A DNA stretch of 53,680 bases from Candidatus Sericytochromatia bacterium (GCA_035285325.1 JAYKJB010000138.1:1-53680); one strand, 5' to 3'. Positions 4,444 to 48,876 are shown, numbered from the stretch's first letter. Numbers and translations are program-made. Notes: generated by a model from the letters alone, not told the origin.

Positions 4444-4528
4444 AGCCAGCGGTGCCGGATCTGCTAAACTTGGAGAGTGGGCTTGGATTCGGGCCATTCA
4501 GACGGCCTTGAGCCTCAGAGGAGGGGCG

Positions 4529-4801: not shown

Positions 4802-4827
4802 AGATTCTCTCCGTAAAGGACGATCAG

Positions 4828-6314: not shown

Positions 6315-6319
6315 ACGAG

Positions 6320-7260: not shown

Positions 7261-7800
7261 TCAAACCTTGGCAGGTTCGGCGGGTCTGGCGTCGCCCTCG
7301 GCTCGTTTGCGGACGGAGGCTTCCAGTGGCCCCATCAACCTCGGAAAGCGCCCCCGCAGCTGATCCCAGGCCCACAAGAGATCCTTTTCGATGGCCTGAC
7401 GCTGGTCGTTGGGCAGCTTCATGGCTTTCTCAAAGGCCTTGGCTTGGCCGCGCGGATCGGCCGCACCCGAAATCAGTTCCCCGATTTCGGGGTGGCGAGC
7501 CAGAAAGTTTTCCTTGAGCCGCATGAACTCGGTTTGCAACTTCAAGCCTTCTTGCGGAGGTAGGCGCCGCATGGCCGCCTGTAGCGCCTCTTGGCGCTCA
7601 GGTCTGACATCGAACTCCTCGAAGCGGGCGGCCAGAAGCGGGTAACTCTTTCGGAGTTTCTTGAGCATTCGCTGCTGATAGGCCTCCCCCATCAGGCGCG
7701 CGGCCTGAGGTCCCCAGCGTTTCCGCGTGGCAAAGGCCGCCAGGGTCAACCCGAGAAGGACGCCACCCAAAATGACCCACACGTTGGTCCACAAATCCAT
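7261..7800 (-). CDS. membrane-anchored hypothetical protein
   Basis: A 179-residue protein with one N-terminal membrane helix (VWVILGGVLLGLTLAAFA) followed by a charged, predominantly helical cytoplasmic part rich in Arg, Lys, Glu and Leu. I do not recognise a family. It lies 51 nt downstream of oleD on the same strand with no clear terminator between them, so it could be the last gene of the lipid operon. GGGGTG about 9 nt before ATG 7800 is a modest ribosome site. A membrane anchor would suit a complex that handles hydrophobic acyl chains, but that is inference from position only. Confidence 0.65.
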   Translation of the reverse strand: MDLWTNVWVILGGVLLGLTLAAFATRKRWGPQAARLMGEAYQQRMLKKLRKSYPLLAARFEEFDVRPERQEALQAAMRRLPPQEGLKLQTEFMRLKENFLARHPEIGELISGAADPRGQAKAFEKAMKLPNDQRQAIEKDLLWAWDQLRGRFPRLMGPLEASVRKRAEGDARPAEPAKV

Positions 7801-7851: not shown

Positions 7852-8874
7852 TCAGGGCGACGCCACCCGGCGAGCTGATGCAGCGCCATGTGAGGCCCAC
7901 CAGTCCGTCAGGCGGCGGAGGCCCTCGTCGGTCGAAACCCGGGGCAGGTATTCCAGGTCACGCCGGGCAGCCGCCAGATCAAAATAATGGCTAGTGGCCA
8001 GTTCGCGCGCGACCCAGCGGGTCATCGGCGGTTCCCCCGGGAGCGCCAGGGTTCGATAGACCGACTCCAGCACGGTGCCGGCTCCCACGGCCAGGAAGGC
8101 AGGCACGGATCCTCGCACGCGTCCGGCCCCCGCCGCGATGAGCAGACGGTCGATCAGTTCCCAGGCCGGCAGTGGCTCCCCATTGGCAATGAAGTAGGCC
8201 TTGCCCGCGCACGGGGCACCTGGCGCCAATCGCTCCGCCGCAGCCAGATGCGCCTGGACCGCGTTGTCAATGTAGGTGGCATCCACCAGGTTCGTTCCGT
8301 CGCCGATCCGGCGCAGCCTGCCCTCGCGGTGCGCCTTGAGCAAGCGGGGCAGCAGATGGGAATCGCCCGGCCCCCAGACCAGGTGCGGACGGAGGGCCAC
8401 CGTGGCGAGCTGATCATCGTTGGCGGCCAGCACCGCGCGCTCGGCCTCGGCCTTGGTCGCGGGATAGGCGGCTTCATGATGGGCTGGATAGGGCACCGTC
8501 TCATCCGCGCCCCTCATGTCCTGCCCGTGGAACACCACGCTGGGGGAACTGGTGAAAACCAGCCGCTTGACCTGTTGGTGACGGCAAGCCGCGATCACGG
8601 ACCGGGTGCCGAGCACATTGCTGCGATGAAAATCCTCCCAACGGCCCCACGCGCCGGCCAGGGCCGCGACGTGGAAGACGATGTCCTGCCCGGTGACCGC
8701 CTCCGTCAAGCGGCGTTCGTCCGCAATATCACCACGGACGGTGCGGATGCCGCTTGCGGCCAGCTCGGGGTAATCGCCGCGCTGGTAGGTGGTGACGGCA
8801 TGGCCTGCTGCCTGAAGGGCCCGGGCCAATCGACCTCCGATAAAGCCTCCGCCACCCGTGACCAGCGCGTTCAC
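7852..8874 (-). CDS. oleD: OleD, 2-alkyl-3-oxoalkanoate reductase
   Basis: This 340-residue protein is an extended short-chain dehydrogenase/epimerase. TGGGGFIGG near the N-terminus is the NAD(P)-binding Rossmann motif, SSPSVVF (around residues 109-115) supplies the Ser, and Tyr137-x3-Lys141 (YPATK) completes the catalytic set. In olefin biosynthesis OleD reduces the 2-alkyl-3-oxoalkanoate from OleA to the beta-hydroxy acid with NADPH. Assignment rests on the fold plus its place in a complete oleABCD set. Alone it would read as a sterol-dehydrogenase-like or epimerase protein. It overlaps oleC by 4 nt (ATGA), so it is probably translated by coupling, and it is the last ole gene. Confidence 0.9.
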   Translation of the reverse strand: MNALVTGGGGFIGGRLARALQAAGHAVTTYQRGDYPELAASGIRTVRGDIADERRLTEAVTGQDIVFHVAALAGAWGRWEDFHRSNVLGTRSVIAACRHQQVKRLVFTSSPSVVFHGQDMRGADETVPYPAHHEAAYPATKAEAERAVLAANDDQLATVALRPHLVWGPGDSHLLPRLLKAHREGRLRRIGDGTNLVDATYIDNAVQAHLAAAERLAPGAPCAGKAYFIANGEPLPAWELIDRLLIAAGAGRVRGSVPAFLAVGAGTVLESVYRTLALPGEPPMTRWVARELATSHYFDLAAARRDLEYLPRVSTDEGLRRLTDWWASHGAASARRVASP

Positions 8875-10496
8875 GTGATGCGCTCCGTGGCCCAGAGTGC
8901 CAGCTTCTCCCGAAAAATCTTGGCGTTGTGGCGGATGTCGACTGGAAACGAGGGATGGACCAGGACTTTGGCGATCGCCCGGGTGTGGCCGTGCGCCTGC
9001 CCGAGCTTCCAGATTTCCTCGATGAGATCCCCACTAGCCCGCTGGCCCCGCTTGAGCTCCACACACAGCACGGGGCGCTGAAATCCAGGATGGTTCGGGT
9101 CCGGCACGCCCACCAGGGCGGTTCTGCGAACCGCCGGGTGCTGGTTGAAGATCGCTTCGCACGGAATGGTGAACATGTCGCCCTGGGCGCAACGCACACG
9201 ATGCGATTTACGCCCCAGGAACCATAGCCGTCCGAGGTCATCAAAACGTCCGAGGTCCCCCATCCGGTGCCACACGCCCCCGGCTGGGTCCGCGATTTTG
9301 GCCCGCGCATCGTGATCCGGGCGACCGTGGTAACGATCGCTGACATTCGGCCCTCTGACCACGATCTCACCGGGCTCGCCAACCGGCCGGCGGAGCTGGT
9401 CGCTCCAGGTGAGAATCGGCTCATCGGAGATGCCGATAATGGCCACTTCAATGCCTTCGAGAGGGCGGCCCACGCAAGTTCCAGCGCCTCGCGCCCACGC
9501 CTCTCGGGTTTCCTGCAGCACTTCCCGTGCGGTGATGCTGGCGACGGGCAGGGCCTCCGTGGCACCGTAAGGGGTTTCGAGTCGTCCATCCGGCGCGAGC
9601 AAGGCGCCGAAATCCTGCAACACGGACGGGGCGACCGGGGCCCCTGCGCTGATGACGAGGCGCAGCGAGGGCAGACGAATGCCACGGGGCAGGGCCCAGC
9701 CAGCCACGCGTTCCAGCAGCGCGGGAGAGCCGAACATCTGGGTGACTTCGTAGGTCAGGATTGGACCGACAATCGCCGTCGGGTCGACCTGACCTGGCCG
9801 GGTGAAGTTCATGCGGGGGATCACCGCCGTGGCGCCCAGGGCAGCATCGAAGAGGGCGAAGAGCGGAAAGGTGGCCAGGTCGATACTGCCTGGCCCAATG
9901 CCGAAGTGGCTGGCCAGCAGTTCGACCTGGGCGTCAAAGGTGCGGTGGCAATGCACCGCCCCCTTGGGGACACCCGTGCTGCCGCTGGTGAACAGGATGG
10001 CGGCGATCGCCTCGGGGCCCGTCTCGACGGCCGTGAACGGGGAGGAGGGGAGCGGGCCCGGATGAAGGGGCAGGGTGCCGGGGAAACGGCCCCCGACGCA
10101 GCACAACAGACGCCCGGCGGCGCTGCCCCAGCGGCCCAGCACCCGCGCCAGATGGGCCATGGGCTGCCCGATGAAGGCGTCGGGAGCCGCTTCGCTCAGG
10201 CAGGTGCGCATGTTGGCCAGGCCCATGCCGGGATCGATCAGCACGGGGACAGCCCCCAGCTTGAACAAGGCAAAGGTCAAGGCGAAAAAATCTTCGCCCG
10301 GACGAACCATCAGGGCCACACGCGAACCCCTGGCGATACCAAGCGCCGAGAGCCGATGCGCGTATGCGTCGCAACGCTGCCGAAGCCCGGCGAAGGTGGT
10401 GACCTTTCCCCGCGCGATCACGGCGCGCCCCTCTGGTTGGAGCGCCGCTTGTCTATCGAAGCGATTGGCGATGTTGGTCGTGGCAACCGCGTTCAA
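8871..10496 (-). CDS. oleC: OleC, AMP-dependent beta-lactone synthetase
   Basis: A 541-residue member of the acyl-CoA synthetase (ANL) superfamily. TSGSTGVPKG at residues 170-179 is the ATP-binding P-loop, YGATEALP near residue 326 is the adenine-contacting motif, and GDLGRFDDLGRLWFLGRKSH holds the hinge. OleC does not make a CoA ester; it adenylates the beta-hydroxy acid from OleD and closes it to a cis-beta-lactone. The family call depends on the neighbours oleB and oleD, with each of which it shares a 4-nt ATGA overlap. Length is normal. No oleB-oleC fusion is present, unlike in some actinobacteria. Confidence 0.92.
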   Translation of the reverse strand: MNAVATTNIANRFDRQAALQPEGRAVIARGKVTTFAGLRQRCDAYAHRLSALGIARGSRVALMVRPGEDFFALTFALFKLGAVPVLIDPGMGLANMRTCLSEAAPDAFIGQPMAHLARVLGRWGSAAGRLLCCVGGRFPGTLPLHPGPLPSSPFTAVETGPEAIAAILFTSGSTGVPKGAVHCHRTFDAQVELLASHFGIGPGSIDLATFPLFALFDAALGATAVIPRMNFTRPGQVDPTAIVGPILTYEVTQMFGSPALLERVAGWALPRGIRLPSLRLVISAGAPVAPSVLQDFGALLAPDGRLETPYGATEALPVASITAREVLQETREAWARGAGTCVGRPLEGIEVAIIGISDEPILTWSDQLRRPVGEPGEIVVRGPNVSDRYHGRPDHDARAKIADPAGGVWHRMGDLGRFDDLGRLWFLGRKSHRVRCAQGDMFTIPCEAIFNQHPAVRRTALVGVPDPNHPGFQRPVLCVELKRGQRASGDLIEEIWKLGQAHGHTRAIAKVLVHPSFPVDIRHNAKIFREKLALWATERIT

Positions 10497-11407
10497 GGGG
10501 CAGGGGCCTCCACCGGGGTCTTCAGGAAACGCACGATTTCAGGTATAAGGCGATCGCCGGCGTCTTCCAGCACGTAGTGCCCTGCATCAGGGTAACGGTG
10601 GGTTTCCGCCTGCGGAAACCGCGCCTGCCAGCCGGCCAGAAAGTGATCGTCGAACACCCAGTCCTGGGCGCCCCATCCCAGCAGGACTGGCAGGTGGCGC
10701 CAATGGGGAAGGTTCGCTTCCACTGCGGCCAGATGCGGCCAGGCGGGGTCTCCGGGGGCCAGTGGGATGTCTTCGACGAAACGCAGGGTGGCGAGCCGGT
10801 TGCTCCAGCTGTCGTAGGGGGCGACGAAGGCCCGTCGCACAAGTGGGGCGAGGGGCTTCACCGTACAGACGCGGGCCGCCGTGGCGGCGAAGGCATTCAA
10901 GCCCAGGACGAGCGGGGTGCCAAGGGGGGTATCCCGCACGAGCCGGAGGGGCCAGGGGAATGGTTTGCTGCCAGGCAAGGGAAAGGCTGCGGTGTTGAGG
11001 GCCACGAGGCGCTTCACCCGTTCGGGATGGCGCGCTGCCCAGGCCATCCCGATCATTCCCCCCCAGTCATGCAGCACCAGCGAGATCGGTCCCCGCACCG
11101 CCAGACTCTCCAGCAAATGCTCAAGGTCGGACACGCGGCTTGCGAGGGTGTAGGCGTAGCGATCGTCGGTCGGCTTGTCGGACAATCCCATTCCCATGTG
11201 GTCCGGAACGATCGCACGACCGAACGGGGACCAGGCCCGCACCAGGTCTCGAAACAGGAAGGACCAGGAGGGGTTGCCGTGGAGCATCACCACCACCTCG
11301 CCATCACGCGGGCCCTCGTCGAGATAGTGCAGCCGCAAACCCTCTCGCTCGTGGTAGTGGCCGGTGAACGGATAGAGCGATTGCCACTCGCCGAGCTTGG
11401 AACCCAT
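10493..11407 (-). CDS. oleB: OleB, beta-lactone decarboxylase (alpha/beta hydrolase)
   Basis: A 304-residue alpha/beta hydrolase of the haloalkane-dehalogenase type. HGNPSW (43-48) is the oxyanion/Trp motif. The nucleophile elbow is HDWGG with Asp114 rather than Ser, and GHYVLED places the catalytic His277. An Asp nucleophile with Trp neighbours is what OleB uses to decarboxylate the beta-lactone to the final cis-olefin. It overlaps oleC by 4 nt and lies 1 nt from the oleA stop, so the four enzymes should be made together; in characterised systems OleB, OleC and OleD form a large assembly. Confidence 0.92.
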   Translation of the reverse strand: MGSKLGEWQSLYPFTGHYHEREGLRLHYLDEGPRDGEVVVMLHGNPSWSFLFRDLVRAWSPFGRAIVPDHMGMGLSDKPTDDRYAYTLASRVSDLEHLLESLAVRGPISLVLHDWGGMIGMAWAARHPERVKRLVALNTAAFPLPGSKPFPWPLRLVRDTPLGTPLVLGLNAFAATAARVCTVKPLAPLVRRAFVAPYDSWSNRLATLRFVEDIPLAPGDPAWPHLAAVEANLPHWRHLPVLLGWGAQDWVFDDHFLAGWQARFPQAETHRYPDAGHYVLEDAGDRLIPEIVRFLKTPVEAPAP

Positions 11408-11408
11408 C

Positions 11409-12446
11409 TCAGCCCTCCCATCCCAGCATCAGGCAGTTGAGGCCACTGCCGATACCCAGCCACGCCACCCGCATGCCGGCCTGCGTGAAACCCTGCTCGG
11501 CGGCCATGGCCGCCGTCACGGGAACGGCGGTGCTCCCGGTATTGCCCAGTTGCGTGTAGGTCACGAAGTCGCGTTCGAGCGGCATCCCGATCGCCTGAAG
11601 AATGGCCGCGCGATTGGCCTGACCGACCTGATGGCTGATGGTCCGGTCCGGCGCTGGCCAGTTCAGTTCCTGCAGCAACCTTTGCCAGGTGTCCCGCCCC
11701 AAGGGGACCCCTTCCCGCATGATCGGGACGGCATCGGTTTCCATCACCATCGCCTGGCGGGCTGGGCGGCGCCGGTCCAGGCCCCAGCGACAAAGATCGT
11801 GGTGTTGGGGGGCCGCCCATTGAATGCCCCCGGCCAGTCGAGGTCCAGGGGGGGCCCCGACCGTTCCATCCGTGAGCACGATCGCCGCCGCCGCTGACCC
11901 TCCCGTGAGCGTTGCCATGGCCTTCATGAAATGCCCCATGTTTCGTTCGAGCAACATCTCCGCGATCATGGCCTCGTTGATTTCGCGGGCCGACTCGCAG
12001 CCTACGACCAGGCCTGCCCGAATCTGCCCCAGTTCGATCATATTGGCCACGTGCAACACGCCGCTCAGCATACCGAGGCACGCATTCGCCACGTCCAGCA
12101 CGGCCACGGCGCCGCCGGCCCCGATCAGATGAGCCACTTCACACGCGCTGGCCGGCTCGAAATCATCCCGGCACACACTGCCGTAGACCACGGCCCCCAA
12201 CTCTCCCGGGCTCAGCTCGGCTCTTTGAAGCGCTTGAAGCCCTGCCTTGGCGGCCATGGGAGCCAGTCGCTGTCCCTCCGGCCACCAGCGTCGGGAATGA
12301 ATGCCCGTCAGATAGGCCAGTTGTCCCGGCGCCACCCGTAGGCTCTCGTAGAGGGGCGCAAGCCTGGCCTCCAGCGCTTCTGATGTGACTTCTTCCTGGG
12401 GCAGCTCGTAGCCCAAGCCGGCCAGATGCACGCGGGTGTATCTCAC
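11409..12446 (-). CDS. oleA: OleA, thiolase-fold acyl-CoA condensing enzyme
   Basis: A 345-residue KAS III-like thiolase. Cys123 in VANACLG is the acylation site, His272 in SHQVGQANR and Asn302 in GNTGS complete the triad, and Glu97 in DDFEPAS is a candidate for the OleA-specific base that deprotonates the second substrate. OleA joins two acyl chains head to head by non-decarboxylative Claisen condensation, giving a 2-alkyl-3-oxoalkanoate. The GTG start overlaps the stop of the large upstream synthase gene by 4 nt (GTGA), which makes translational coupling to a PUFA-type synthase likely. That linkage suggests, but does not prove, that its substrate comes from that synthase. Confidence 0.92.
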   Translation of the reverse strand: MRYTRVHLAGLGYELPQEEVTSEALEARLAPLYESLRVAPGQLAYLTGIHSRRWWPEGQRLAPMAAKAGLQALQRAELSPGELGAVVYGSVCRDDFEPASACEVAHLIGAGGAVAVLDVANACLGMLSGVLHVANMIELGQIRAGLVVGCESAREINEAMIAEMLLERNMGHFMKAMATLTGGSAAAAIVLTDGTVGAPPGPRLAGGIQWAAPQHHDLCRWGLDRRRPARQAMVMETDAVPIMREGVPLGRDTWQRLLQELNWPAPDRTISHQVGQANRAAILQAIGMPLERDFVTYTQLGNTGSTAVPVTAAMAAEQGFTQAGMRVAWLGIGSGLNCLMLGWEG

Positions 12447-15400
12447 GTGCTGGTCCCTTCCTCCAGGCTGAGGGAGAAATCGGTCATGCTGTAGATGGGC
12501 CGACCGTCCACCGACAGGATCCCGTCTGCCACCAAGGTCCGCGTTTCCTCATCGATTCGCTTCACGTGCATCTCCACCACCATCTCCCGATTGGTGGGGA
12601 CAATCTGGCCTCGGTACAGCCAGCTATGCTCCCTCCCCGCTGCCAGCGATCCGAAGGTCGGGCGTTCCACCCAGGCCCCCCAGCGACGCCACACCTCGGC
12701 CTTCATCAGCTGCACCAGGGCTTCGAGTCCGAGCGAGCCGGGACAGACAGGGTCCTGGTAAAAGTGGGCGGCAAAGTACCAGTCGGCCGGGTCGACTCGC
12801 TTGCGGCCCCGCATGAATCCAAGGCCGTGATCGCCCCCGTGCGTCTCCCATCGATCGATTTCGCCGACCAAGGCCAGCTTGCCGGTCGGCATGGGGCCGA
12901 ACTGCGCCGGAAAAGGAAGCCGTTGTCTGGGGTCGAGCGGTGAGGGCTCCACCCCCCTCAGTCCGACCTGCTGGGAGAGGGCTTGCTTCGTGAAGAAACC
13001 AAACATCGTCCACCCCGTGTAGACGGCCTCCCCCTGACAGGTCACGCTGAATTCGAATTCCTGGATGATCATCCCGGATGACTGCGACACTTTCGTCAGT
13101 CTGGCGTGTGTGACGAGGGTGCCGTCCTGGGGGCCGACCGGTCGGGATTGAATGGCCTTGCCCCCCAGGTTGCGGAAGGAAAGATCCACGGGCGAGGTCA
13201 AGGCAGAACCCACGTAGGCGGCCAGCCAGCCACAGGGTTGGAGCGCCACTTCAAGCAGCACGGCAAAGGGCATGGTCGGCTGACCTTCGTCCCTGAAGTA
13301 CCAGGCGTCTGTGGGAATGTCGTAATGCGCTTCACAGGCGGCCCCGGCCTCGCAGACCCAGGGAGCCCCGCTGACCTGCACGACCCGATCCAGGAACATG
13401 TAGGGGGGGCCCGGCAAACGAGCGATGACACGCTCGCGGTCAAAGATGCGATAGCGCTCACCGAAGGCCTCGGAGGGGTTCCCAACCGCAAAGGCGAGGA
13501 TGCTTTCGGGGCCATACTGGCACCGGGGCTCCTGTCGCTTCACGACGGGCGCGCGTGACGTCTCGCCCAGAGAGCGGTTGGCGCGAGCCAGCTCCCACAT
13601 GGCTTGCAGATGGACACGCCGAAGTCCGGACAGTCGGATGCTCATGTCGCTGATGAAGACGATCGGCTTGCCATCTGCCAACATCAGGGCATCTGCCAGG
13701 GCGAAGGGCGTGCCATCCGCCTCATAACCCAGTTCTTTGAAGGAGACCTCATAGGTCACGACCTTGCTGGTCGCCAAGACCTGCCCACGGCACCGCAGCC
13801 GACTTTGAACGCCAACCACCGGTTCATGCGAGACGGTCCCGGCTGGTCCGACCCAGCCCAGCCGCATCAGAAAGATTCGCATGGTGTGCAGGCAGCATTC
13901 GTACATCAGGGTGCCTGGCATGACCTGATCGTCGACGAAGTGGCATTTCAGGTACCAGGCATCCGGCACCACGTCATGCTCCGCCCGGATCAGTCCGAGC
14001 CCGAAACGGCCACCGGTCGGCTCGATCGCACAGACCCGGTCGACCAGGCGCATCAGGCCATCGGGCAGTGTCGCCGCACGCGTGAAAGGCAGGCCCGAAA
14101 AGGCTTGGCCGAACGCGCCAACCAGGTCTCCATCACGCAGAGCTGCCAGGTGTGAGGCATCCAACGGTGTCTTGCCCATGGGCAGCAGGGGGGTCCAATC
14201 CGGCGGCAGACGGCCAGGCAACGTGCGACTCTCAAGGGCGGAGAACACGATTCCCTTGCCTTCGGCCAGCTGTTCCGCCGTGAAGAATCCGGCGCAGCCC
14301 TCTCGCATGGTCATCAGCGGGCGGCCCGCGACTGTCGCGTCGAATCGGAAGAAGAACAGCGTCACCCCGCTCTGTTCGATGAAGCGATCGATGGCGATGT
14401 CGTAGCGAATCGTTTCACCAGGGCCCGGGAGCGGCCCATGGAAGGTGACCACCGCGTCGAGCAGGCGATAGACCGCCAGACCGCGCGTCTTGAAATCGAT
14501 CCCGAGCCAGCCACTCAGGAACAGGTCAGCCTGACCGGCTTCCACGGCCACGCACGTGGGGATGCGATGCCCGTCCAGGTACCAGGCCCCCGCTTTGACG
14601 TCATGTTCCGTCACAATGGTGCCCTGCGTGAGGGAACCGGGTTCTCCCGTGACAGAAAGAATCCGATCAACCAGCATCAGCGGCTCATCCGGCAATCTCA
14701 CGCGCGTCGGATAGGCGTCAATCGGCGCGAAGTAGGCCCCCAGCACCGGCTCGATCTGGCCCCTGGCATAGGCCAGGCAGCCTGCCCGATCGAGCCAAAC
14801 CGGCGCGTCGGAAACTGACTCCGTGCGCGGCAACCAGCGTGTGATCAGCGCATGGATCGCCCGAATGCTCTCCTCGCCGCTCCGATTCTCGGCCTCCAGC
14901 GCGGCATAAGCTTCCCGGGCCTGGTGGTTGGCCACCGTTACGCAGGCGAGGCCATCGTTGGCGCGGTCCATCCAGCGCCGAAGCGCCGACACCGTGTCCT
15001 GACGCTCAGCCAGAGCGACTCCCGGGGAGTGAACGGGAGCGCCATGCTCGACGCGGGGTTCCGGCCGCACGGCGGCCATCAGCGCCTCCCCGCCAGTGGT
15101 CCTTGGGGAGTGGAACGGCTCGGCTCGCTTCCCCGTCTCACGCCGCGGTAGACGGGCTGAGACGGCGCCTGGTGAAGGCTTCTCGGCGAGAGGTTCAGGC
15201 TCGCGTGACGACGGAGCGACCAGGTCGGTTCTTGGCTTGCCGCGCCGCCGAATGCGCGCGGTGACGATGGGGGCGGGCGAGGGTTGGGCCGGGGAAGCGG
15301 GGGACTCGGACGGGGCGATCGCCACCTCCGAGGGTCTGTTCGCCGCTGCTGCAACCGCCAGGCCGCCGGCGTGAAGGGGCACGCGTGCCACGGGGCCTGT

Positions 15401-19495: not shown

Positions 19496-22400
19496 GGTGT
19501 CATCGGGGCTGACAGGGTGTTGCGCCGAAAGGCCTCCACCAGGCCGGTCGCAAAGGTGCATTCCGCCCCTCGGAATTCGGCAACCAGCTGGCCGGATGGA
19601 TCGAGGAAGGCCACATCGGCCAGCACTGTACCGACCCGACGGGCCGTCACGTGGACAGCCACCGAGTAACTGGGGGCCTGGAAGGGGCGATACATCCGGA
19701 AACTGCTGACTCGGCAGGGTAGACAGGCCGCCCCAAGCGTTTCGACACTCCACAAGATCAGCATCTGGAACATGGCGTCGATCGCAAGCGGTTCCGTCAG
19801 CCACGTATCGCGAACCGGGGCTTGCATCCACTGCTGGGGATTTCCGGCAGCCTGCACCTTGCCGAGCACGCCTTCGGGACCGAGCACATCGACCGTCAGC
19901 AGGCCATGGAAAGTGGGCCCGTGGAACAGCACGCTGCGATAGGCCTCTTCCACACTTCGGAAGTACGGCCAGGCATCCAGGCCCCCCTGCCATCCGTGGG
20001 ACCAGTGTCGTTCCGGTCCGGCTGCGCGGTCGGCCCCCAACAGGACCGTGGTGTGCGACAGTGGACGCTCCCGTCCATCGCCATACAGTTCGACCTTGAC
20101 CCTCTGCTGGCCTTCCGGATCGCTCACAGGCTTGCCGGCATCGAACCGCAGGCCATACGGCTCCACCTCCAGGACCACCCCTTTCAGCAACTCGAAGTCG
20201 TCGAATCCAATCAGGGCCGCCCCGGGGCGCAACTGACTGGCGGCATGGACCATCCACTCGAGCATGATGGCCACCGGCAGGACCGCCTTGCCATTCAGCA
20301 CGTGGTCCCCCATGAACGGGTGGGTTCGAACGGCCAGGTCACGCCGCATCACCGTTTGCAGCCTTTCCTCGGCAGGCGCAGGCGCCACCACTGGAGCCGC
20401 CTGGTTCTCGGAGGCGACGCGCAGGCCGTCGGTCGGGCCCAGGACGATCAGCTCGGGAGCCGCTGGGCGATCGCGACCCAGTTCCGCAGCCAGCCACACG
20501 GAACCCTCATTCAGCGGCAAAATCCCTACCCCTTCGGCCGCGAACATCGCCTTGAGCGCAGGGGTGACCATGCCCCCATCCCAGGGGCCCCAGCCGACGG
20601 ACATCACCCGCAGAGTCGGTTGCGTGGCCGACAGTCGCCGGGCGAACTTGTTGAGGACCTCATTGGCCATGGCGTAATCGCTCTGTCCCAGTCGGCCCAC
20701 CCGGGCCGTGATGGAAGAGAACAGCACCAGATGGCGCAATTCTTGGACGTCCAGCGCCTGCCAGAGCGCACGCAGCCCGGCCACCTTGGTGTCAAATACC
20801 CGGTCGAACTGCGCGGGCGTCTTGTCGGCGATCGCCTTGTCGGCGAGGACGCCCGCTCCGTGGACCAGCATCCGCACCGGGCCGAAATCCTGCCTGAGCG
20901 AGGCAAGGGTGTCGGTCAGGGCCTGGGTGTCACGCACGTCCACGCTCACATAGCGCGCGGTCACGCCAAGCGCCGCGAGACGGGCCAGCGTGCGAGCCAC
21001 TTCTCTCGCTGCGGCGACCTCTTGCCAGCGCGCGGATATTTCGCGGGGCGCCAGGGGATGGTCCGAGTGGTCCGAGATGGCGCGCTTGATGGCCGCTTCA
21101 TCCTGGGCCTGTGCCAGCCAGGTTGGCTCGCCTTCCGGCAGCTCGGTGCGTCCCAACAACACGACCACAGGGCGATAGGCCAGCGCGATTGCCACAGCCA
21201 CTTCGGCCGTGACCCCCCGCCCGCCCCCGGTCAACACCACCAGATCCCCGGGTTGCAGGCTGAGGGGACGGGCTGACGCGGGGCCAGCGGGTTCAAGCAC
21301 CAGCGTGAAGCGGCCATTGGGACCCAGCGCCACCTCACTCGGACCAGGAAGCGTGATCTCATCCACCAAGGCCAGCGCAGCTGCCGCGTCATCCCACCCT
21401 GGATGGAGGTCAAACGCCTGACAGATGGTGTCAGGCCATTCGTGAGCGGCCGTCTTGGCCAGGCCCGCCAACGCGCCCGCCAGGGGGCTGAAAGGCAATG
21501 AGGCATCGACCAGGCCAAAGGCACCATCCATACGGGCCACGGTCACGAACCAGCCGCGGTTGGCCTGAAGCAGCGGTGCCGCCGCCACTGTGAGCTGAAA
21601 GGCCCGCTTGACGAGCCCTTCGTCTGATGCGCTCCACGTCGGTCCATCCCCCTGGGGGGCGACCAGGACCAGGCCAGCCAGTTCACCCGGCACCGTCCAT
21701 TCGGACGAATCCTGGAGGTTCACGGCCACGGCTGTCAGACCGGCCGCTCGGAGGCACTCGACCAGGGTGGTCACGAGTCCATGCCCAGGCGGCCCCGCCA
21801 CCCAGACCGTGGCCCCAGGAGCCAACTTGGGTTGCGCCAGCCGATCCGTGACTGGCAGCGGACTCAGGCTGGGGACTTCGCAGCTCAATCCCAGAGCCGT
21901 CGCCGGGTCTGCCGCCCGCTGGGCCAACTGCCAGCGCGCGCTCAGAGCGGGCGAAGGGGCGGGGTTGAAATCCGCGGGCACCAAAGGCCGAAGCCCGCTG
22001 TCTGGCTCCGGCACCGCTGGTAACAAGGGCGCCTCGGCCAGATGCTGGACGGCCGCGGTCAGGGTCTGCCACGACACCTGGGAGGCGGTCATGGGTGGGT
22101 TGGCGCCGTTCACCGCCGGGGGGGCTTCACGGTCCACCGGGGGCTGCTGGCTCCCGGTCGCGCTTTCCATGGCCGTTACCACGTCGCGCAGGGTGTGCAG
22201 GGAACCCGCCTGTTCAGGGCCGAGAGGACGCGCTCCCGGGAGGCGCTCCACCAAGGCTGACAGGATCTCGACCCGCTTGATGGAATCGATGCCCAGGTCA
22301 CCTTCCAGCGCCATGTCCAGCTCGAGCGTGTCGATCGGATAGCCCGTCTTCTCCGAAACCACCGCCAACAAAGCGTCGGTGGCCGCGTGGGCCCCTGAAA

Positions 22401-25400
22401 CTTCCTGCGCGCCGCCATTCGATGGTGGCAGGCCGGCAGAGGCTGGAGGCCGTTCGGGCATGAGCGGCTCCGGCCAGGCAGGCAGGCCGAGCTGGTCGTT
22501 CACGGGTTCCGCCTGAGGGCCCGCGAGGGCCGGCGCAGGCCCGGCAGGCAGCGCCTCAGCCGGCGCAGCCTGAGCCGCCAGCGCCTCGGCCACGTCCCGC
22601 AGGGTCCGTAAGCCACCCGCCTGTTCCGGGCCCAGCGGGTGCGCGCCGGGAATGCGTTCGACCAGGGCGGAGAGAATTTCCACGCGTTTGATCGAGTCGA
22701 TTCCCAGGTCGCCCTCCAGCGCCATGTCCAGTTCCAGGGTGTCGACCGGGTAACCCGTTTTCTCAGACACCACGCCCAGCAGGGCTTCCACCGAGTGGGC
22801 AGCAGCCGACGGGGCGGGCGACTCCAGAGGGGCAGGCCCCGTCTCAACGGGAGCAGTCCCGGCAGGCGGGGGTAGCGATGGACGGCTCTCCGTTCGTTCC
22901 GGCTGTGAGGGAGTCGCAAGAGGGGCTGAAGTGGCACCGTTGGCTTGGAGGGCCGGGCCCACTTGGGCCGCCAGGGCGACCGCGACGTCACGCAGGCTGC
23001 GCAGGGCGCCAGCCTCTTCAGGTCCCAGCGGACGGGTACCGGGGAGGCGCTCGATCAGAGCCGACAGGATTTCGACCCGCTTGATGGAGTCGATACCGAG
23101 GTCTCCCTCCAGGGCCATATCCAATTCCAGGGTTTCTGGCGGGTAACCCGTTTTCTCCGACACGACGGCCAGCAACTCGGCCCGCACACCGTCCAAGGGC
23201 ACCGCGGTTTCTTGCTTCGGCAGCTGCGCGGGAGCCGGTTCGGGCTGACGCAACGGCGCAGGAGGCATCGCGCCCGACCGTTCTGGGGGCGAGACTGGCG
23301 TCTCCGCTGCCGGGGCGGAGGCGACCGTTGGCTGGGGGCGTCTCGGGAGGGGGAGTGGCCGGACGTCGATAGGGGGCATCACGCTGCCCGGATTGGCAGG
23401 CTGGACCGGCGCGACCGGCGGCAAGCTTGCCACGGATTCCTGCCGTGCAGGCGGCTCGGGCAGCGGTTCAACGGCGGCTTGCGACGGGGCCGACGGTTTG
23501 GCCGCCTGAAACCGCATTCCCCTCAGGGCGCGACGAGTGGCCTCAACGGTAGCGGCTGCCGCCGGGGCGATCGCCGGGCGCGCGCCGGCTGCCGTTGCCT
23601 CCCCTGGGGGCTCGGTCTCGCCTCCGAGCTTCGCCAGCAGTTCCCGTTGTTGGTCCATCAGGCGTCGGAAGGTTTCTTGGGACGCCCGCTGGCTCTCCAA
23701 GAATGCCTGATGCATGGCGGCAGCCTCCTGCTGGGAGGCTTGCCACGCCGCGATCGTGTCCGTCGAGGCCTGAATCAGCGCCTTGACAGCTTCATGGTCG
23801 GCCACAGGGGTAGCCGCTTCAGGTCCACGCCATTCAGAGTGAGGAGAGGTCACGAGAGACTCCGCGGTTGCAGTCGGGCGACGACGGTCACCCGCAGCAG
23901 GGGGCAGTGAAGTGGGACGCCGCGGATCTCGGTAGAGAGCCCCGCTGACCATCACCTTCATTTTAGGCCTTTTCCGCTCCCGTAGGGAGGCAACGGCGGC
24001 TGCGCCCCCCTGCCACTGCGTCAGGTCGATCGGATGACCGACGGCGCAAAGCTGGGCCATCGCGCGGGCCAGGTCGGCCAACCCGTCCCGCTTTCCCTGG
24101 GAGGCGTCCAGCGCGATCGCCGTATGCGGGCGATCACCCAGAATGGCGCGAACCATTCCGGACAGACGTGAGCCAGGCCCCACCTCCAGAAAGACGCGGA
24201 CACCGGCGGCATACATCGCTTCGATCTGACCGATCCAGTCCACCGGCCTGGCCAACTGCGAGGCAAGCAGGGCGCGGCTTTCAGCGGCGTCGCCCGGATA
24301 AAGACCACCCAGGGTGTTGCTGTATACCGGAAAGGAGGCGGGCGGCAGGGGCATGCGGGCCAGGGCAGCCGCCAGGGGGTCGGCAGCATCCGCCACCAGG
24401 GGAGAATGGAAAGCGGCACCCACGGCCAGCGGCGCGACGCGCATCCCGGCTGCCTTCAACTCCGTCTCCGCGCGCGCGATGGCGGCGCGGGAGCCCGAAA
24501 TGACGCCTTGGTTCGGTGTGTTGCGATTGGCCAGCACGAGCCCCTCACCGTGACGGGCCAGCCAGGCCTCCAGTTCGGTCAGCGGGGCCAGGACGGCCAG
24601 CATGCTGCCTCGCGCCTCCGTTCCCGCGGCCATCAAGCGACCTCGCAACACCGAAAGCTCCAGAAATTCGGTGCGCGACAGGCGACCGGATGCCATCAGG
24701 GCGGTGAGCTCCCCGTAACTGTGTCCCGCTGCAGCCACAGGGCGGAGGCCCCAGTTGGCCAGGATGGACCACATCCCCAACGACACGGCACCAATCGCGG
24801 GTTGCGCAACATCGGTGGCCCTGAGCTGCTCCTCCTGTTCGGTCACGCCTGCGGCATCATAGGCGGTGAGGGGGTAGATCCGGTCGATCAGGCGGCTGCC
24901 GTGAGGCAATTCGCCCCCGGCTTCCAGGCCGAAAGCGACCTCGGCCTCTTCCAGAGCTTCAAGGGCTTCAGGGAAGGCGCAGGCGAGCGTTCGCCCCATC
25001 CCCACATACTGCGCGCCCTGCCCGGGGAACAGCACGGCAAGGCCTCCCGCCGAAGGGCCCGAGGCATAGCAGGCGCCGTCGGGGAACTCGAAGTCTCGTC
25101 CTTCGGCCGTCCTTGCCAGCAGGCGGGCCACGAGGTCAGCCACCTGAGTGCTGTCGCGTTCGACCACAAACGCGAGACGGTGAGCGGCTCCCGGGTGGAA
25201 ACCGGCCCGTGCATCACAGGCCGCGACTTCCAGGTCTTCCCAACTCTCCAGCGTTCCAAAGGGCTTGAGCGCCGCGTGTAGGGCGTCGAGCGAGTCGGCG
25301 GAGAGGGTCACCAGCTGGACCCGGCCGTCCCAATCCGTGGCGCGGCGTTCCGGTTTGTGTTCCTCCAGGACGACGTGGAAGTTGCTGCCACCAAACCCGA

Positions 25401-26760
25401 AGGAACTCACCGCCGCCCGGCGTGGGTGAGCACGCCGACGCAGCCAGGGACGGGGTTCTGCAGGAAGATAAAACGGGGATTGAGCGTCCTGAATGCCGGG
25501 CAAGGGCTGCTTGACCTTGCACGTGGGGGGAAGCACCTTGTGGTGGAGCGCCAGCACGGCCTTGATCAGGCCAGCGGCTCCAGCCGCCGCCTTGGTGTGG
25601 CCGATCTGGCTCTTGACCGATCCCAGGGCACAGTGGGGTCGGTGGGCCTCGGCCTCGCCGTAGATGCGACGCAGCGCGGTGACTTCAATGGCATCGCCGA
25701 CCTTGGTCCCGGTTCCGTGTCCTTCGAGCAATTCGATCGTCGCCGGCGTGACCTCCGCTGCGGCATAGGCCGCCGTCAGCGCCCGTTGCTGTCCGTCGTC
25801 ATCCGGCGCGTAGATGGCCTTGCCTCGACCATCGCTGGCCGTCCCAACCCCCTTCAGCACGGCATAGATGGTGTCGCCATCTCGCTCAGCCTCGTCCAGG
25901 CGTTTGAGCACGACCATCCCCACCCCCTCACCGAGAATGGTGCCGTCGCCCTCTGCATCAAACGGTCTGGCATTGCCGGTGGGGGAGAGGGCAGGCGTCT
26001 TGGAAAAACACATGTACATGAAGATGTCGTTGAAGGCATCCACGCCGCCCGTGATCACCATGGAGGAGCGGCCGGCGGACAGCTCGAGGGCCGCCAGATG
26101 AATGGCTGACAGGGACGAGGCGCAGGCCGCATCCACGACGCAGTTCGTCCCGCCCAGGTCGAGGCGATTGGCAATTCGCCCGGCGACGACATTTCCGAGC
26201 AGGCCCGGGAAGGAGGCTTCCTGCCACGGTACGTAGGTGGCCTCCAAGCGTGCCACCACGTCATCGGCCTGGTCAGCTGGGACGCCAGCCTCCAGCAACG
26301 CCCGGCGCCAGTGGGGATGTCCCAGACGGGCACCCAAGGGAATCACCAGTTGCAAGGTTCCCGTGACGCCCAGCACCACGCTGACCCGGCTGCGGTCGAA
26401 TGACCTGTCGGGTCCATAACCCGCATGTCTGAGCGCCTCGCTGGCGACCACCAAGCCCAGCACCTGAGCCGGGTCGGTCGCCTCCAGCGCGTGGGGTGCG
26501 ATGCCGTAAGCGGTGGGGTCGAAGGGCACAGGGTCAATGAAGCCTCCCCGCTGGGCATAGGTGTGGTCGGGGCGCTTGGGGTCGGGATCGTAATAGTCTG
26601 CTGGCTTCCAGTGGGTCTCCGGAACGGGGCCGATCCCGTCGACGGCTCGCTTGATGTTGCCCCAGTAGTACCCGAGGTTCTGGGCCTTGGGAAACAGACA
26701 GGCGAGCCCCACGATCGCGATGGGGGTGGAGGCTGCCTTGGCGTCAATCGATTGAGTCAC
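19492..26760 (-). CDS. pfaA: PfaA-type PUFA synthase subunit (KS-MAT-3xACP-KR-DH)
   Basis: A 2422-residue megasynthase. Ketosynthase (1-450): Cys213 in DAACASS, His348 in EGHGTGT, and KSQIGH. Malonyl-type acyltransferase (570-870): GQGAQ and Ser681 in GHSYGE. A Pro/Ala-rich linker leads to three ACPs, each with GIDSIKRVEIL; the phosphopantetheine serines are 1225, 1356 and 1493. Ketoreductase: nucleotide loop LTGGGRG (about 1842) and catalytic Tyr2029 in GQSDYAMAN. A C-terminal hotdog dehydratase begins with GDHVLNGKAVLP (His2153). This is the standard PfaA/Pfa2 layout: the ACPs carry the growing chain through cycles of condensation, reduction and dehydration. No phosphopantetheinyl transferase gene is in the window, so activation must come from elsewhere. 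GTG 26760 is used; its ribosome site is weak. Confidence 0.95.
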   Translation of the reverse strand: MTQSIDAKAASTPIAIVGLACLFPKAQNLGYYWGNIKRAVDGIGPVPETHWKPADYYDPDPKRPDHTYAQRGGFIDPVPFDPTAYGIAPHALEATDPAQVLGLVVASEALRHAGYGPDRSFDRSRVSVVLGVTGTLQLVIPLGARLGHPHWRRALLEAGVPADQADDVVARLEATYVPWQEASFPGLLGNVVAGRIANRLDLGGTNCVVDAACASSLSAIHLAALELSAGRSSMVITGGVDAFNDIFMYMCFSKTPALSPTGNARPFDAEGDGTILGEGVGMVVLKRLDEAERDGDTIYAVLKGVGTASDGRGKAIYAPDDDGQQRALTAAYAAAEVTPATIELLEGHGTGTKVGDAIEVTALRRIYGEAEAHRPHCALGSVKSQIGHTKAAAGAAGLIKAVLALHHKVLPPTCKVKQPLPGIQDAQSPFYLPAEPRPWLRRRAHPRRAAVSSFGFGGSNFHVVLEEHKPERRATDWDGRVQLVTLSADSLDALHAALKPFGTLESWEDLEVAACDARAGFHPGAAHRLAFVVERDSTQVADLVARLLARTAEGRDFEFPDGACYASGPSAGGLAVLFPGQGAQYVGMGRTLACAFPEALEALEEAEVAFGLEAGGELPHGSRLIDRIYPLTAYDAAGVTEQEEQLRATDVAQPAIGAVSLGMWSILANWGLRPVAAAGHSYGELTALMASGRLSRTEFLELSVLRGRLMAAGTEARGSMLAVLAPLTELEAWLARHGEGLVLANRNTPNQGVISGSRAAIARAETELKAAGMRVAPLAVGAAFHSPLVADAADPLAAALARMPLPPASFPVYSNTLGGLYPGDAAESRALLASQLARPVDWIGQIEAMYAAGVRVFLEVGPGSRLSGMVRAILGDRPHTAIALDASQGKRDGLADLARAMAQLCAVGHPIDLTQWQGGAAAVASLRERKRPKMKVMVSGALYRDPRRPTSLPPAAGDRRRPTATAESLVTSPHSEWRGPEAATPVADHEAVKALIQASTDTIAAWQASQQEAAAMHQAFLESQRASQETFRRLMDQQRELLAKLGGETEPPGEATAAGARPAIAPAAAATVEATRRALRGMRFQAAKPSAPSQAAVEPLPEPPARQESVASLPPVAPVQPANPGSVMPPIDVRPLPLPRRPQPTVASAPAAETPVSPPERSGAMPPAPLRQPEPAPAQLPKQETAVPLDGVRAELLAVVSEKTGYPPETLELDMALEGDLGIDSIKRVEILSALIERLPGTRPLGPEEAGALRSLRDVAVALAAQVGPALQANGATSAPLATPSQPERTESRPSLPPPAGTAPVETGPAPLESPAPSAAAHSVEALLGVVSEKTGYPVDTLELDMALEGDLGIDSIKRVEILSALVERIPGAHPLGPEQAGGLRTLRDVAEALAAQAAPAEALPAGPAPALAGPQAEPVNDQLGLPAWPEPLMPERPPASAGLPPSNGGAQEVSGAHAATDALLAVVSEKTGYPIDTLELDMALEGDLGIDSIKRVEILSALVERLPGARPLGPEQAGSLHTLRDVVTAMESATGSQQPPVDREAPPAVNGANPPMTASQVSWQTLTAAVQHLAEAPLLPAVPEPDSGLRPLVPADFNPAPSPALSARWQLAQRAADPATALGLSCEVPSLSPLPVTDRLAQPKLAPGATVWVAGPPGHGLVTTLVECLRAAGLTAVAVNLQDSSEWTVPGELAGLVLVAPQGDGPTWSASDEGLVKRAFQLTVAAAPLLQANRGWFVTVARMDGAFGLVDASLPFSPLAGALAGLAKTAAHEWPDTICQAFDLHPGWDDAAAALALVDEITLPGPSEVALGPNGRFTLVLEPAGPASARPLSLQPGDLVVLTGGGRGVTAEVAVAIALAYRPVVVLLGRTELPEGEPTWLAQAQDEAAIKRAISDHSDHPLAPREISARWQEVAAAREVARTLARLAALGVTARYVSVDVRDTQALTDTLASLRQDFGPVRMLVHGAGVLADKAIADKTPAQFDRVFDTKVAGLRALWQALDVQELRHLVLFSSITARVGRLGQSDYAMANEVLNKFARRLSATQPTLRVMSVGWGPWDGGMVTPALKAMFAAEGVGILPLNEGSVWLAAELGRDRPAAPELIVLGPTDGLRVASENQAAPVVAPAPAEERLQTVMRRDLAVRTHPFMGDHVLNGKAVLPVAIMLEWMVHAASQLRPGAALIGFDDFELLKGVVLEVEPYGLRFDAGKPVSDPEGQQRVKVELYGDGRERPLSHTTVLLGADRAAGPERHWSHGWQGGLDAWPYFRSVEEAYRSVLFHGPTFHGLLTVDVLGPEGVLGKVQAAGNPQQWMQAPVRDTWLTEPLAIDAMFQMLILWSVETLGAACLPCRVSSFRMYRPFQAPSYSVAVHVTARRVGTVLADVAFLDPSGQLVAEFRGAECTFATGLVEAFRRNTLSAPMTP

Positions 26761-26784
26761 GTGGGGTCCCGTTCTGTGTGGGGG

Positions 26785-28440
26785 TCAAGCCAGCGCTTGT
26801 TCCAGGGCAAGGTCGGAGAGCACCGGCGCAACCGGCAACCCGACAGGCAGCTGCAGCGCTGCCCCTGAAGCCTGACACCGCAACAACTCCCAGCGCTTGA
26901 GCGCACACGCTCCCACCAGGAGGTTGTGCGCCACTCTCACCACCCCACGCGCAGCGGGTTCAGCCAGCGCGGTTCCGGCCGTCCAGGCGTTGAAGGCGCC
27001 CATGGCGGGACCACACCAGACCTGGTAGTCCAGCTTGCGGGTCGGTTCACCCGCATTGGCCCAGCGCGACGCGTGCCCGAGATACCAGCGGAACACCAGC
27101 GCCATCCGATGGCGGGGGTCGCGCTCCGCTCGCGCAATCTGGCTCGGATCACGGGTGGTGAAATATTGCCGCGTTTCCTCCCAGATGCTCTCCAAGGTGG
27201 CTCGAAAGTAGTCCTTCTCCAGCGACTTGCGCACCTCTTCCGGGAGTGCCTCCAGGCTGTCGTGGCTGCGGTAAAGCTCATAGAGCCGTGTGGCGCGCAT
27301 GGGGAACATGGTCCCGCGTTTGAGGACCTGGACCTTGACGCCCATCTCGAACATATCACCTGCAGGCGCCATCGCCACATCGGCCTGCTGCGCTTGTGCG
27401 AGCATCGCGCGCACAGCGTCGGAACTGCCAGACTCCACGCAGGCCTGATTGATGGAGCCTGTCACGACGTAGTCTGCACCGAGCGCAAACGCGGCCGCCA
27501 CACTCTCCGGGGTGGCAATGCCTCCGGCGAGGCCCACTCGGGGCCGCCGGGCATAACCGTACTGCTTGGCCAGGGCGTCACGCAGGGCCAACATGGTCGG
27601 AAGCAGCGAGAGGGCCGGCCGATTGTCGGTGTGCCCCCCGCTGTCAGCTTCGGCGGTCAGGTCGTCGGCCACGGGGAGCGCCCGCGCCCATTCCGCCTGC
27701 TCGGCCGACAGGTGCCCCTCCTCCACCAGCTTGGTCAGCATGCCTTCCGGCGGTGGGGCCAGAAATTTGGAGGCCACCTCCACCCGTGAAACCTTTGCAA
27801 TCACGCGATTCGGGGCATGGGGACGCCCGTCTTCGCCAAGGCGGATCCCCGCCGTGCGATAGCGCACGAGCGGCAAGGTCAAGTCCAGGTAGGCCGCCGC
27901 TTCGACGAGTCGAATCCCGCGTTGGAGATACAGGGCCACCGTATCCCGTTCATGGTCCGGCTCGTTCGGCGCATGCAACAAATTGAACCCGTAGGGAGCT
28001 TCTCCCAAGGCCGCCTGAATGCGGTCGATCGCCGCCTCCACCCGTGGGAGAGATAGGCCGCCGGCTCCAAAGAATCCAAGCATTCCATGCCGCCCCATGG
28101 CCTCCACGATCGCTTCCGAGCCAATCCCATTGGCCATCGCGCCGGCCACGTAGGGGTATTTCAGGCCGTGGTCCCGCAGAAAGTCGGGCGCCCCCAGCTG
28201 CGCGGGGCGCAGGGCAGGGATGATTCCCAGGACCGGCGCATCGCCGTCACCTTGCCGCTCGGAGAGGAGGCTGCCTCCCATCCCGAGGCATGCGCCTCCG
28301 TTGCGCTCCAAAAGGACCATAGAGCGGCCCAGAGAACGCAGTCCCAAGGTCCATTCCCCCTCGGTTTCGAGGACGGTTCCGGCGCCTTGACGCCACGCGG
28401 CGATCGCCGTGCGAGGAGGCTCTGTGGTCAGCGGCGACAT
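26785..28440 (-). CDS. pfaD: PfaD-type enoyl reductase (FMN TIM-barrel)
   Basis: A 551-residue protein of the PfaD/PUFA enoyl-reductase family, related to nitronate monooxygenases. Visible family features are GAGGLSLPRVEAAI, the substrate-loop region GFNLLHAPNE, and the FMN phosphate-binding segment GGIATPESVAAAFALGADYVVTGS followed by NQACVESG. It reduces the enoyl-ACP intermediates with NAD(P)H and so decides which double bonds are kept. ATG 28440 is well placed after AAGGAG. It lies 24 nt before pfaA and 17 nt after the dehydrogenase gene. The gene order ER, then pfaA-type, then pfaC-type is that of myxobacterial pfa1-pfa2-pfa3. Confidence 0.95.
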   Translation of the reverse strand: MSPLTTEPPRTAIAAWRQGAGTVLETEGEWTLGLRSLGRSMVLLERNGGACLGMGGSLLSERQGDGDAPVLGIIPALRPAQLGAPDFLRDHGLKYPYVAGAMANGIGSEAIVEAMGRHGMLGFFGAGGLSLPRVEAAIDRIQAALGEAPYGFNLLHAPNEPDHERDTVALYLQRGIRLVEAAAYLDLTLPLVRYRTAGIRLGEDGRPHAPNRVIAKVSRVEVASKFLAPPPEGMLTKLVEEGHLSAEQAEWARALPVADDLTAEADSGGHTDNRPALSLLPTMLALRDALAKQYGYARRPRVGLAGGIATPESVAAAFALGADYVVTGSINQACVESGSSDAVRAMLAQAQQADVAMAPAGDMFEMGVKVQVLKRGTMFPMRATRLYELYRSHDSLEALPEEVRKSLEKDYFRATLESIWEETRQYFTTRDPSQIARAERDPRHRMALVFRWYLGHASRWANAGEPTRKLDYQVWCGPAMGAFNAWTAGTALAEPAARGVVRVAHNLLVGACALKRWELLRCQASGAALQLPVGLPVAPVLSDLALEQALA

Positions 28441-28457
28441 GAAAGGGCTCCTTGCGT

Positions 28458-29465
28458 TCAGGCGGGGTAGGCGTCGCTGTAGCGCACGGGCAGGTCTGCC
28501 ACCGTGCGGAGACCAGGGGGGGCCGCCGCCACCAACGGAATCGCATTGAGGATCGCGGCGGCCGTTGCCAGGTCACCATGGGTGCCGCCCGGAATCTCGA
28601 GCGTCAGGTCCGGCACCCCACGCAACACGATCCGGTCTGACGGCGCAGAGGCGCCCACATACATCTCCAGGACCAGCCGCAGAACTTCCTCTTCCCCACG
28701 CGACGCCACGCAAACTTGGCGGACTCCCGCCACCTGACCAGCCTCGACCGTCAGGTAATCGGTCGTGGTGGTGGCCCGAGCCAGCACCGGGTCAATCGTC
28801 TCGCTGATGGTGTCCACCGGTACGCCCCACGCGTCGGCGATCAGAGCGGCCGACTCCGGCAACCCGTGATGCTTGATCCTCCCCGCTTCCACTTCCGCCC
28901 GGAACTGGGCTTCCGTCATTCCGGCACCCACCTTTTTCTGCAGAGGCAGACGGCGACGACCTGCGTCCACGACCCGGGTGATGGTGGCGCCTTCGACGCG
29001 CTGGCACACGGAGGAGAGCGTCAGGACCAGCTTGTCCATCACAAACCCTGGGTTCACGCCCGTGGCGTGGAGCGTCACGCCGTGGGCCACCGCAATCTCA
29101 TTGAGTTCCCGCGACAGGGCGGGATGTTTCCGCAACGGATAGGCCAGTTCTTCGCACGTCGAGACCACGTTTCGGCCTGCCGAGAGGCAAGACACCAACT
29201 GGTCTCGGACCGAGACCAGGTAGCTGCCGGTGCAATGCACCACCACATCGGCGGGCACCTCGAGCCCTTCCGCCAGGCTGCCCAGCACCGGGACTCCCAG
29301 CGATTGAGAGAGTCCCAGGATCTCGCCCAGGTCTCGGCCGACCTTCTCCGGGTCGGCGTCCACGGCGGCCACGATCGTCGCGTGCGGCTTTTCCGCTACC
29401 AAGCGCCCGATGGAAGCCCCGATCGGCCCCAAGCCAAACAGTACAACCCGCAAACCCTCTGCCAC
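28458..29465 (-). CDS. DapB-fold NAD(P)-dependent oxidoreductase, 2,4-diaminopentanoate dehydrogenase-like
   Basis: A 335-residue protein with an N-terminal Rossmann domain (LFGLGPIGASIGR), VVHCTGSY for substrate approach, GVNPGFVMD, and a C-terminal half resembling dihydrodipicolinate reductase relatives and 2,4-diaminopentanoate dehydrogenase. The real substrate cannot be told. GTG 29465 is preferred because GGGAGG lies 6 nt upstream; GTG 29486 has no such site. It is the first gene after the promoter at 29517-29545 and is followed by pfaD after only 17 nt, so it should be the leading gene of the lipid operon. This enzyme family is not part of the known Pfa or Ole pathways, so its role here is an open question. 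Confidence 0.8.
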   Translation of the reverse strand: MAEGLRVVLFGLGPIGASIGRLVAEKPHATIVAAVDADPEKVGRDLGEILGLSQSLGVPVLGSLAEGLEVPADVVVHCTGSYLVSVRDQLVSCLSAGRNVVSTCEELAYPLRKHPALSRELNEIAVAHGVTLHATGVNPGFVMDKLVLTLSSVCQRVEGATITRVVDAGRRRLPLQKKVGAGMTEAQFRAEVEAGRIKHHGLPESAALIADAWGVPVDTISETIDPVLARATTTTDYLTVEAGQVAGVRQVCVASRGEEEVLRLVLEMYVGASAPSDRIVLRGVPDLTLEIPGGTHGDLATAAAILNAIPLVAAAPPGLRTVADLPVRYSDAYPA

Positions 29466-29490: not shown

Positions 29491-29511
29491 GGTCGCGCGG
29501 AGCGCGCGACC
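29491..29511 (-). promoter_or_regulatory. perfect inverted repeat at the predicted transcript start of the lipid operon
   Basis: A 9-bp perfect stem with a 3-nt loop (GGTCGCGCG GAG CGCGCGACC). It begins right at the transcription start predicted from the adjacent promoter, so the mRNA would carry it at its extreme 5' end. It could stabilise the message or be a repressor operator. No T-run follows, so it is not an intrinsic terminator. Confidence 0.6.
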
Positions 29512-29516
29512 CGTTG

Positions 29517-29545
29517 ATTTTAGCAGCCTGGGAGGGAACTGTCCC
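29517..29545 (-). promoter_or_regulatory. sigma70-type promoter of the dehydrogenase-pfa-ole operon
   Basis: On the minus strand GGGACA (-35, 29540-29545) and TAAAAT (-10, 29517-29522) are 17 nt apart. Four of six and five of six bases match consensus. It is the only convincing promoter seen upstream of the gene run that ends at oleD. Confidence 0.6.
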
Positions 29546-48740: not shown

Positions 48741-48837
48741 CGTGATCCTCCTGGCGGACCAAAGATCGGCCCCACGCAACCCGGCTTCGCCCATCAGAGG
48801 CGTCAGCTGCACGCTGCCGTAGGGGAAATGTGTAAGC

Positions 48838-48868: not shown

Positions 48869-48876
48869 GAATCGAG

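Follow-up and report, generated by a model that had tools for sequence, protein, structure and literature searches.

The window analyzed here, a 53,680-nucleotide stretch from Candidatus Sericytochromatia bacterium (GCA_035285325.1, JAYKJB010000138.1:1-53680), carries on its minus strand, from 29465 down to 7852, eight genes in the order ord-pfaD-pfaA-pfaC-oleA-oleB-oleC-oleD. They encode a Pfa polyunsaturated fatty acid (PUFA) synthase together with the complete OleABCD olefin pathway, and the operon is very probably a self-contained pathway leading to a long polyunsaturated hydrocarbon of the head-to-head type. A first-pass annotation of this DNA had proposed such a dedicated pathway, and the proposal proved well supported by gene content, gene order, agreement between the Pfa and OleA trees, and the product of Geobacter bemidjiensis (PMC4882568, PMC3098273). 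The reading thus rests on protein families and their catalytic residues, on contiguous and co-directional genes whose order is kept in relatives, on the co-occurrence of Pfa and OleA and the agreement of their trees, and on the literature.

Organization of the pfa-ole operon

All eight frames are open, with zero internal stops, and they are tightly packed. Neighboring genes overlap by 4 nt at pfaA/pfaC (19492-19495), pfaC/oleA (12443-12446, GTGA), oleB/oleC (10493-10496), and oleC/oleD (8871-8874), and are separated by 17 nt at ord/pfaD, 24 nt at pfaD/pfaA, and 1 nt at oleA/oleB. From these spacings and overlaps, we infer that the eight genes form a single transcript. The earlier description of pfaD-, pfaA-, and pfaC-type genes running straight into oleABCD on one strand was therefore borne out by frames, overlaps, and gaps; its list of pfa and ole genes holds as given but left the first gene, ord (29465-28458), unnamed.

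The three pfa genes encode the expected set of synthase subunits. PfaD (26785-28440), the trans-acting enoyl reductase, scored 659 bits against TIGR02814 (cut-off 449), and its best solved relative is the PUFA synthase PfaD 6lkc (E 5e-163). In PfaA (19492-26760, 2422 aa), Pfam domains follow the order ketosynthase (KS), malonyl acyltransferase (MAT), three acyl carrier proteins (ACPs), ketoreductase (KR), and a C-terminal dehydratase (DH) of the polyketide synthase (PKS) type. Its motifs are intact: the KS cysteine lies in DAACASS, the MAT carries GHSYG, there are three LGIDSIK ACP sites, the KR tyrosine is present, and the C-terminal DH carries HVLNGKAVLP, which matches the HxxxGxxxxP motif. 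PfaC (12443-19495, 2350 aa) is a PfaBC fusion with the architecture KS-CLF-AT-(DH'-DH)x2, in which an active KS is followed by a second KS-like domain without the active cysteine (QAEEM) that resembles a chain length factor (CLF). An acyltransferase (AT) with GYSLG stands between CLF and DH, and four FabA-like hot-dog domains, two strong and two weak, come after it. Residues 993-1351 matched the PfaB family model below its cut-off. The operon has no separate pfaB, the AT of that kind being fused into PfaC as in the Type I clusters of Shulse & Allen, and it has no pfaE. The defining elements of a Pfa synthase are thus all found, namely KS-MAT-tandem ACP-KR in PfaA, KS-CLF and FabA-like dehydratases in PfaC, and the enoyl reductase PfaD, and together with the catalytic residues they are what a functional synthase would be expected to show.

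The Ole pathway is likewise complete, as the first-pass annotation had it, with families and catalytic residues in agreement. OleA (11409-12446), the acyl-acyl condensing thiolase, scored 415 bits against PRK09258 (cut-off 285), and among solved proteins it is closest to the 3-oxoacyl-synthase III structures 3fk5, 3row, and 3s21, which we take to be Xanthomonas OleA structures. Its Glu97, Cys123, His272, and Asn302 align with catalytic positions and are conserved across the aligned relatives, so that both the catalytic cysteine and the glutamate are in place. OleB (10493-11407), an alpha/beta-hydrolase acting as beta-lactone decarboxylase, belongs to a haloalkane-dehalogenase-like family and retains the HDWGG nucleophile and the GHYVLED histidine. 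OleC (8871-10496), the AMP-binding beta-lactone synthetase, scored 655 bits against PRK09274 (cut-off 478) and has an intact TSGSTGVPKG loop. OleD (7852-8874), the 2-alkyl-3-oxoalkanoate reductase, carries its catalytic YxxxK motif as YPATK. Elsewhere in the genome, contig C76 holds an OleD-like reductase (876-1865, 41% identity) beside a distant 3-ketoacyl-ACP synthase (KAS) III-like gene (1898-2869, 24% to OleA).

Proposed pathway and points against it

Ole chemistry consists of condensation by OleA, reduction by OleD, beta-lactone formation by OleC, and decarboxylation by OleB. In the pathway that we propose, the three ACPs of PfaA would carry an all-cis polyunsaturated acyl chain assembled by PfaA, PfaC, and PfaD; by analogy with Shewanella and Geobacter, this chain is probably about C16:4. 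OleA would join two such chains by Claisen condensation into a beta-keto acid, which OleD would reduce to a beta-hydroxy acid; OleC would close the beta-lactone and OleB would remove CO2, yielding an internal cis alkene, C31:9 or a near homologue. OleA would probably draw its acyl groups straight from the PfaA ACPs, as proposed for Shewanella, and co-transcription would match supply. The ACPs would be activated by an unlinked phosphopantetheinyl transferase (PPTase) encoded on another contig. Judging from the encoded enzymes, the likeliest product thus appears to be a polyunsaturated olefin of the head-to-head type, such as C31:9.

Several observations weigh against this pathway. Chain length and unsaturation are not readable from sequence. 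The beta-lactone synthetase models gave OleC 582 and 527 bits, both under their strict equivalog cut-offs, and the best match of OleD, NF042422 OleD, reached 437 bits versus an equivalog cut-off of 580. OleA sits on a long branch of 1.05 changes per site, which may reflect a shift in substrate. Comparison with G001, which belongs to a second genus and was the one further genome of the window's family covered here, showed about 54% identity for OleA and 73% for the Pfa KS; OleA evolves much faster, with its catalytic residues kept. Finally, the sole ACPS-family protein detected in the genome, the PPTase on contig C11, is unlinked to the operon, and its LSISH motif is nearer the PKS type than the PUFA type. 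A PUFA-type PPTase close by, usual for Type I but not required, was not found in the genome.

Conservation of the pfa-ole linkage across phyla

As the search suggested by the first-pass annotation revealed, the gene order is also present in the second genus of the family and, within another phylum, in at least 13 genomes. In G001 it is spread over three contigs, of which one carries ord (66% identity to the window), pfaD (73%), and the start of pfaA (63%), another carries pfaC, which overlaps oleA by ATGA, and a third, beginning inside oleA, carries oleABCD. Among the named genomes scanned, the closest were Candidatus Ozemobacter sibiricus and one relative; O. sibiricus has pfaD-pfaA-pfaC-oleABCD in the order and orientation of the window. 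Of 40 Ozemobacter-phylum genomes, 33 had an OleA-like gene and 20 a close OleA; at least 13 of these 20 have pfaC immediately upstream of ole. PfaC was present in 18/20 close-OleA genomes versus 4/20 of the others (Fisher p 1.7e-5, uncorrected for kinship). Within the window's own phylum, OleA at E 1e-40 or better occurred in 8 of 386 sampled genomes, and a close OleA only in the two of the family; none of the sampled genomes is shared between this phylum and either the Ozemobacter phylum or that of the Lentisphaeria record. The kept gene order in relatives rules out a chance juxtaposition of pfa and ole.

Phylogenies of the two enzymes agree. The window, G001, CSSED10-310, and 20 Ozemobacter-phylum genomes form one clade in the OleA tree (100/99), and the PfaA KS tree contains a matching clade (99/97), apart from a second Pfa cluster described below. 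Pfa KS and OleA distances correlate with r 0.90 over 11 genomes, a correlation that vertical descent alone would also produce. Because the grouping crosses phyla and is absent from most of the window's phylum, it points to a joint transfer of pfa and ole as one unit. What is new is that the window's family (two genera) and at least 13 of the 40 Ozemobacter-phylum genomes carry the pfaC-ole linkage, with Pfa and OleA trees that match, and that the genome of the window also has the second Pfa cluster. The window KS itself groups with the Ozemobacter-phylum clusters and apart from Beijerinckia Type P, in a tree whose typed references comprise that one cluster plus untyped plasmid relatives. PDB searches returned no named PUFA-synthase KS for type assignment. 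The KS phylogeny that had been called for thus supplied this grouping from a tree with no named Type I KS, and the window's cluster is at most a candidate member of Type I proper.

The linkage also varies. Some relatives have pfa and oleABCD on different contigs, and one genome (G421) shows a second kind of linkage, in which pfaD-pfaA-pfaC adjoins oleABCD but is divergently transcribed. Two others (G473 and G748) have oleA directly after pfaC, oleC and oleD elsewhere in the genome, and no oleB seen beside pfa-oleA; oleA thus remains with pfa though the pathway is split. We considered these as ketone-making clusters of pfa and oleA only, a view rejected on account of the oleC and oleD present elsewhere in both genomes.

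A second Pfa cluster and the destination of the acyl chain

The same genome encodes a second pfaD-pfaA-pfaC set (contig C84, 40198-56705) of another KS lineage, grouping with a sequence on an Azospirillum plasmid, and G001 has a matching cluster (contig C382). No ole genes were found within the stretch read around the C84 cluster, whose contig ends about 0.8 kb after pfaC. From their sequences, two synthases of different origin could possibly reflect a division of labor. Taking this further, the ole-linked Pfa may serve the hydrocarbon wholly, with OleA as its sole off-loader, and the ole-free Pfa may make a separate lipid, a view that we put forward tentatively. If true, a Pfa synthase would have come to build the chains at the head of a machinery dedicated to hydrocarbon and passed on across phyla as one unit.

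The Pfa product could instead be mainly free or membrane PUFA, with Ole tapping a side stream, as in Shewanella strains that produce eicosapentaenoic acid (EPA). Shewanella indeed makes both products, and deletion of ole alters EPA only about twofold (PMC6463001). Here, however, the ole genes lie inside the pfa operon, domain scans of that operon found neither a phospholipid acyltransferase nor a thioesterase gene, and the ole-free cluster could supply membrane lipid, which makes a side stream rather unlikely. We give still less credence to the view that OleA uses type II fatty acyl groups, that Pfa makes an unrelated secondary lipid, and that adjacency reflects joint regulation. Many OleA enzymes are generally known to take saturated or monounsaturated chains, linkage alone is no proof of flux, and the separate contigs in some relatives would fit such a view; against it, Pfa and the close OleA clade co-occur with congruent trees across phyla, and G. 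bemidjiensis, with the same gene order, makes C31:9 (PMC4882568).

The pfaC/oleA overlap and acyl hand-over

The first-pass annotation had also taken the GTGA overlap of pfaC and oleA as a sign of equal translation and hence of physical hand-over of the chain, an argument that turned out to be weak. The 4-nt overlap occurs only in the window's family, the window having GTGA and G001 having ATGA. Homologous pairs elsewhere are separated by 11, 33, 36, 43, 46, 51, 134, and 172 nt, and by about 4-5 nt in G473 and G748. An unrelated histidine kinase/response regulator pair (5391-7027) is joined by a 4-nt overlap as well (6311-6314), and oleA has its own Shine-Dalgarno sequence, GGAGGA, upstream. 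Because the overlap is confined to the family and common elsewhere in the window, and because oleA has its own GGAGGA, GTGA cannot show equal translation or physical hand-over, and the comparison across relatives led us to reject it as evidence for the latter.

Translational coupling could still be a device that places OleA on the synthase, given that both genera of the family preserve the overlap and that oleA stays beside pfaC in G473 and G748 despite oleC and oleD lying elsewhere. We nevertheless consider this improbable, since other relatives have anything from about +4 to +172 nt between the two genes, overlaps of this kind also connect other gene pairs, the two-component pair among them, and oleA carries its own ribosome-binding site. 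Moreover, Shewanella OleA worked in trans: with Pfa it produced a 31:8 ketone in an Escherichia coli fadD mutant, the two gene sets being on separate constructs, and inactive OleA still lowers EPA (PMC6463001). Direct hand-over between ACP and OleA is plausible from this published evidence; the idea is already known, and the window itself is not the proof.

The ord gene and other neighboring features

The first gene of the operon, ord (28458-29465), encodes an NAD(P)-dependent reductase of the DAP_DH_C/dihydrodipicolinate-reductase-like family. It matched PF19328 (E 4e-36) and, below the cut-off of 400, NF040740 (251 bits), and its closest solved structures are dihydrodipicolinate-reductase/amine-dehydrogenase-like. 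Both genera of the family have it linked to pfaD, the G001 copy (4215-5192) lying upstream of pfaD, and none of the other pfa-ole regions tested has it. The G001 ord and pfaD genes are separated by one that, judged by eye, is class-IV-aminotransferase-like.

A weak candidate for the operon start on the minus strand (29491-29545), from a consensus scan only, combines a sigma-70-like GGGACA-17-TAAAAT with a 9-bp hairpin; the scan found 2 promoter-like sites in a 5-kb region versus 0.5 expected. The hairpin (29491-29511) is perfect and GC-rich and precedes the ord start codon by about 25 nt. An open reading frame at 7261-7800 was rejected as a ninth gene, since it has no Pfam match and its G001 relative, though on the contig with oleD, is about 13 kb away from that gene. 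Farther away, tRNA-Arg(acg) (48876-48950) overlaps the start of a long DEAD-box helicase frame (46941-48956), and the helicase gene therefore probably starts further in.

Comparison with known pfa-ole systems

For the uncultured lineages studied here, for which we found no published account, these data extend the pfa-ole hydrocarbon route and show a module whose gene order and common tree persist across deep divergence. Being compact, the operon lends itself well to cloning for a test of direct uptake by OleA from Pfa ACPs, and the second Pfa of the genome allows a test of OleA discrimination between two synthases.

Linkage of pfa and ole is frequent (Shulse & Allen 2011), and the two pathways are linked through OleA (Allemann et al. 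2019, PMC6463001). Photobacterium profundum SS9 (Type A) has its pfa and ole genes as chromosomal neighbors, like the window; unlike it, SS9 has two operons with a pfaT thioesterase gene between them and a separate pfaB, and no polyunsaturated hydrocarbon (PUHC) was detected (PMC6463001). In Shewanella oneidensis and S. pealeana, Pfa-derived chains are joined by OleA to give C31:9, which depends on pfa, but the pfa and ole operons are separate and the synthase also makes EPA (PMC6463001). The closest sequences outside the family, those of Ozemobacter sibiricus and its relatives, share the pfaA-pfaC-oleABCD order, with identities of 51-52% for OleA, 58% for OleD, and 54% for the DH region of PfaC; these clusters lack the 4-nt pfaC/oleA overlap and ord, and their pfaD is often elsewhere.

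The nearest known system, compared through its published description, is that of G. bemidjiensis Bem, a Type I cluster with gene order and functions like those of the window (PMC4882568, PMC3098273) and with the pfaB acyltransferase likewise fused to pfaC. Its pfaD, A, B, C, oleA, B, C, D, and pfaE lie in tandem, and it makes C31:9 (Yoshida et al. 2016, PMC4882568). The window differs in lacking pfaE in the operon, in its extra first gene ord, in tighter spacing, and in lineage, differences that are minor overall. The pfa-ole gene order is thus already published, and the window is a well-preserved new example of it, not a new kind of system.

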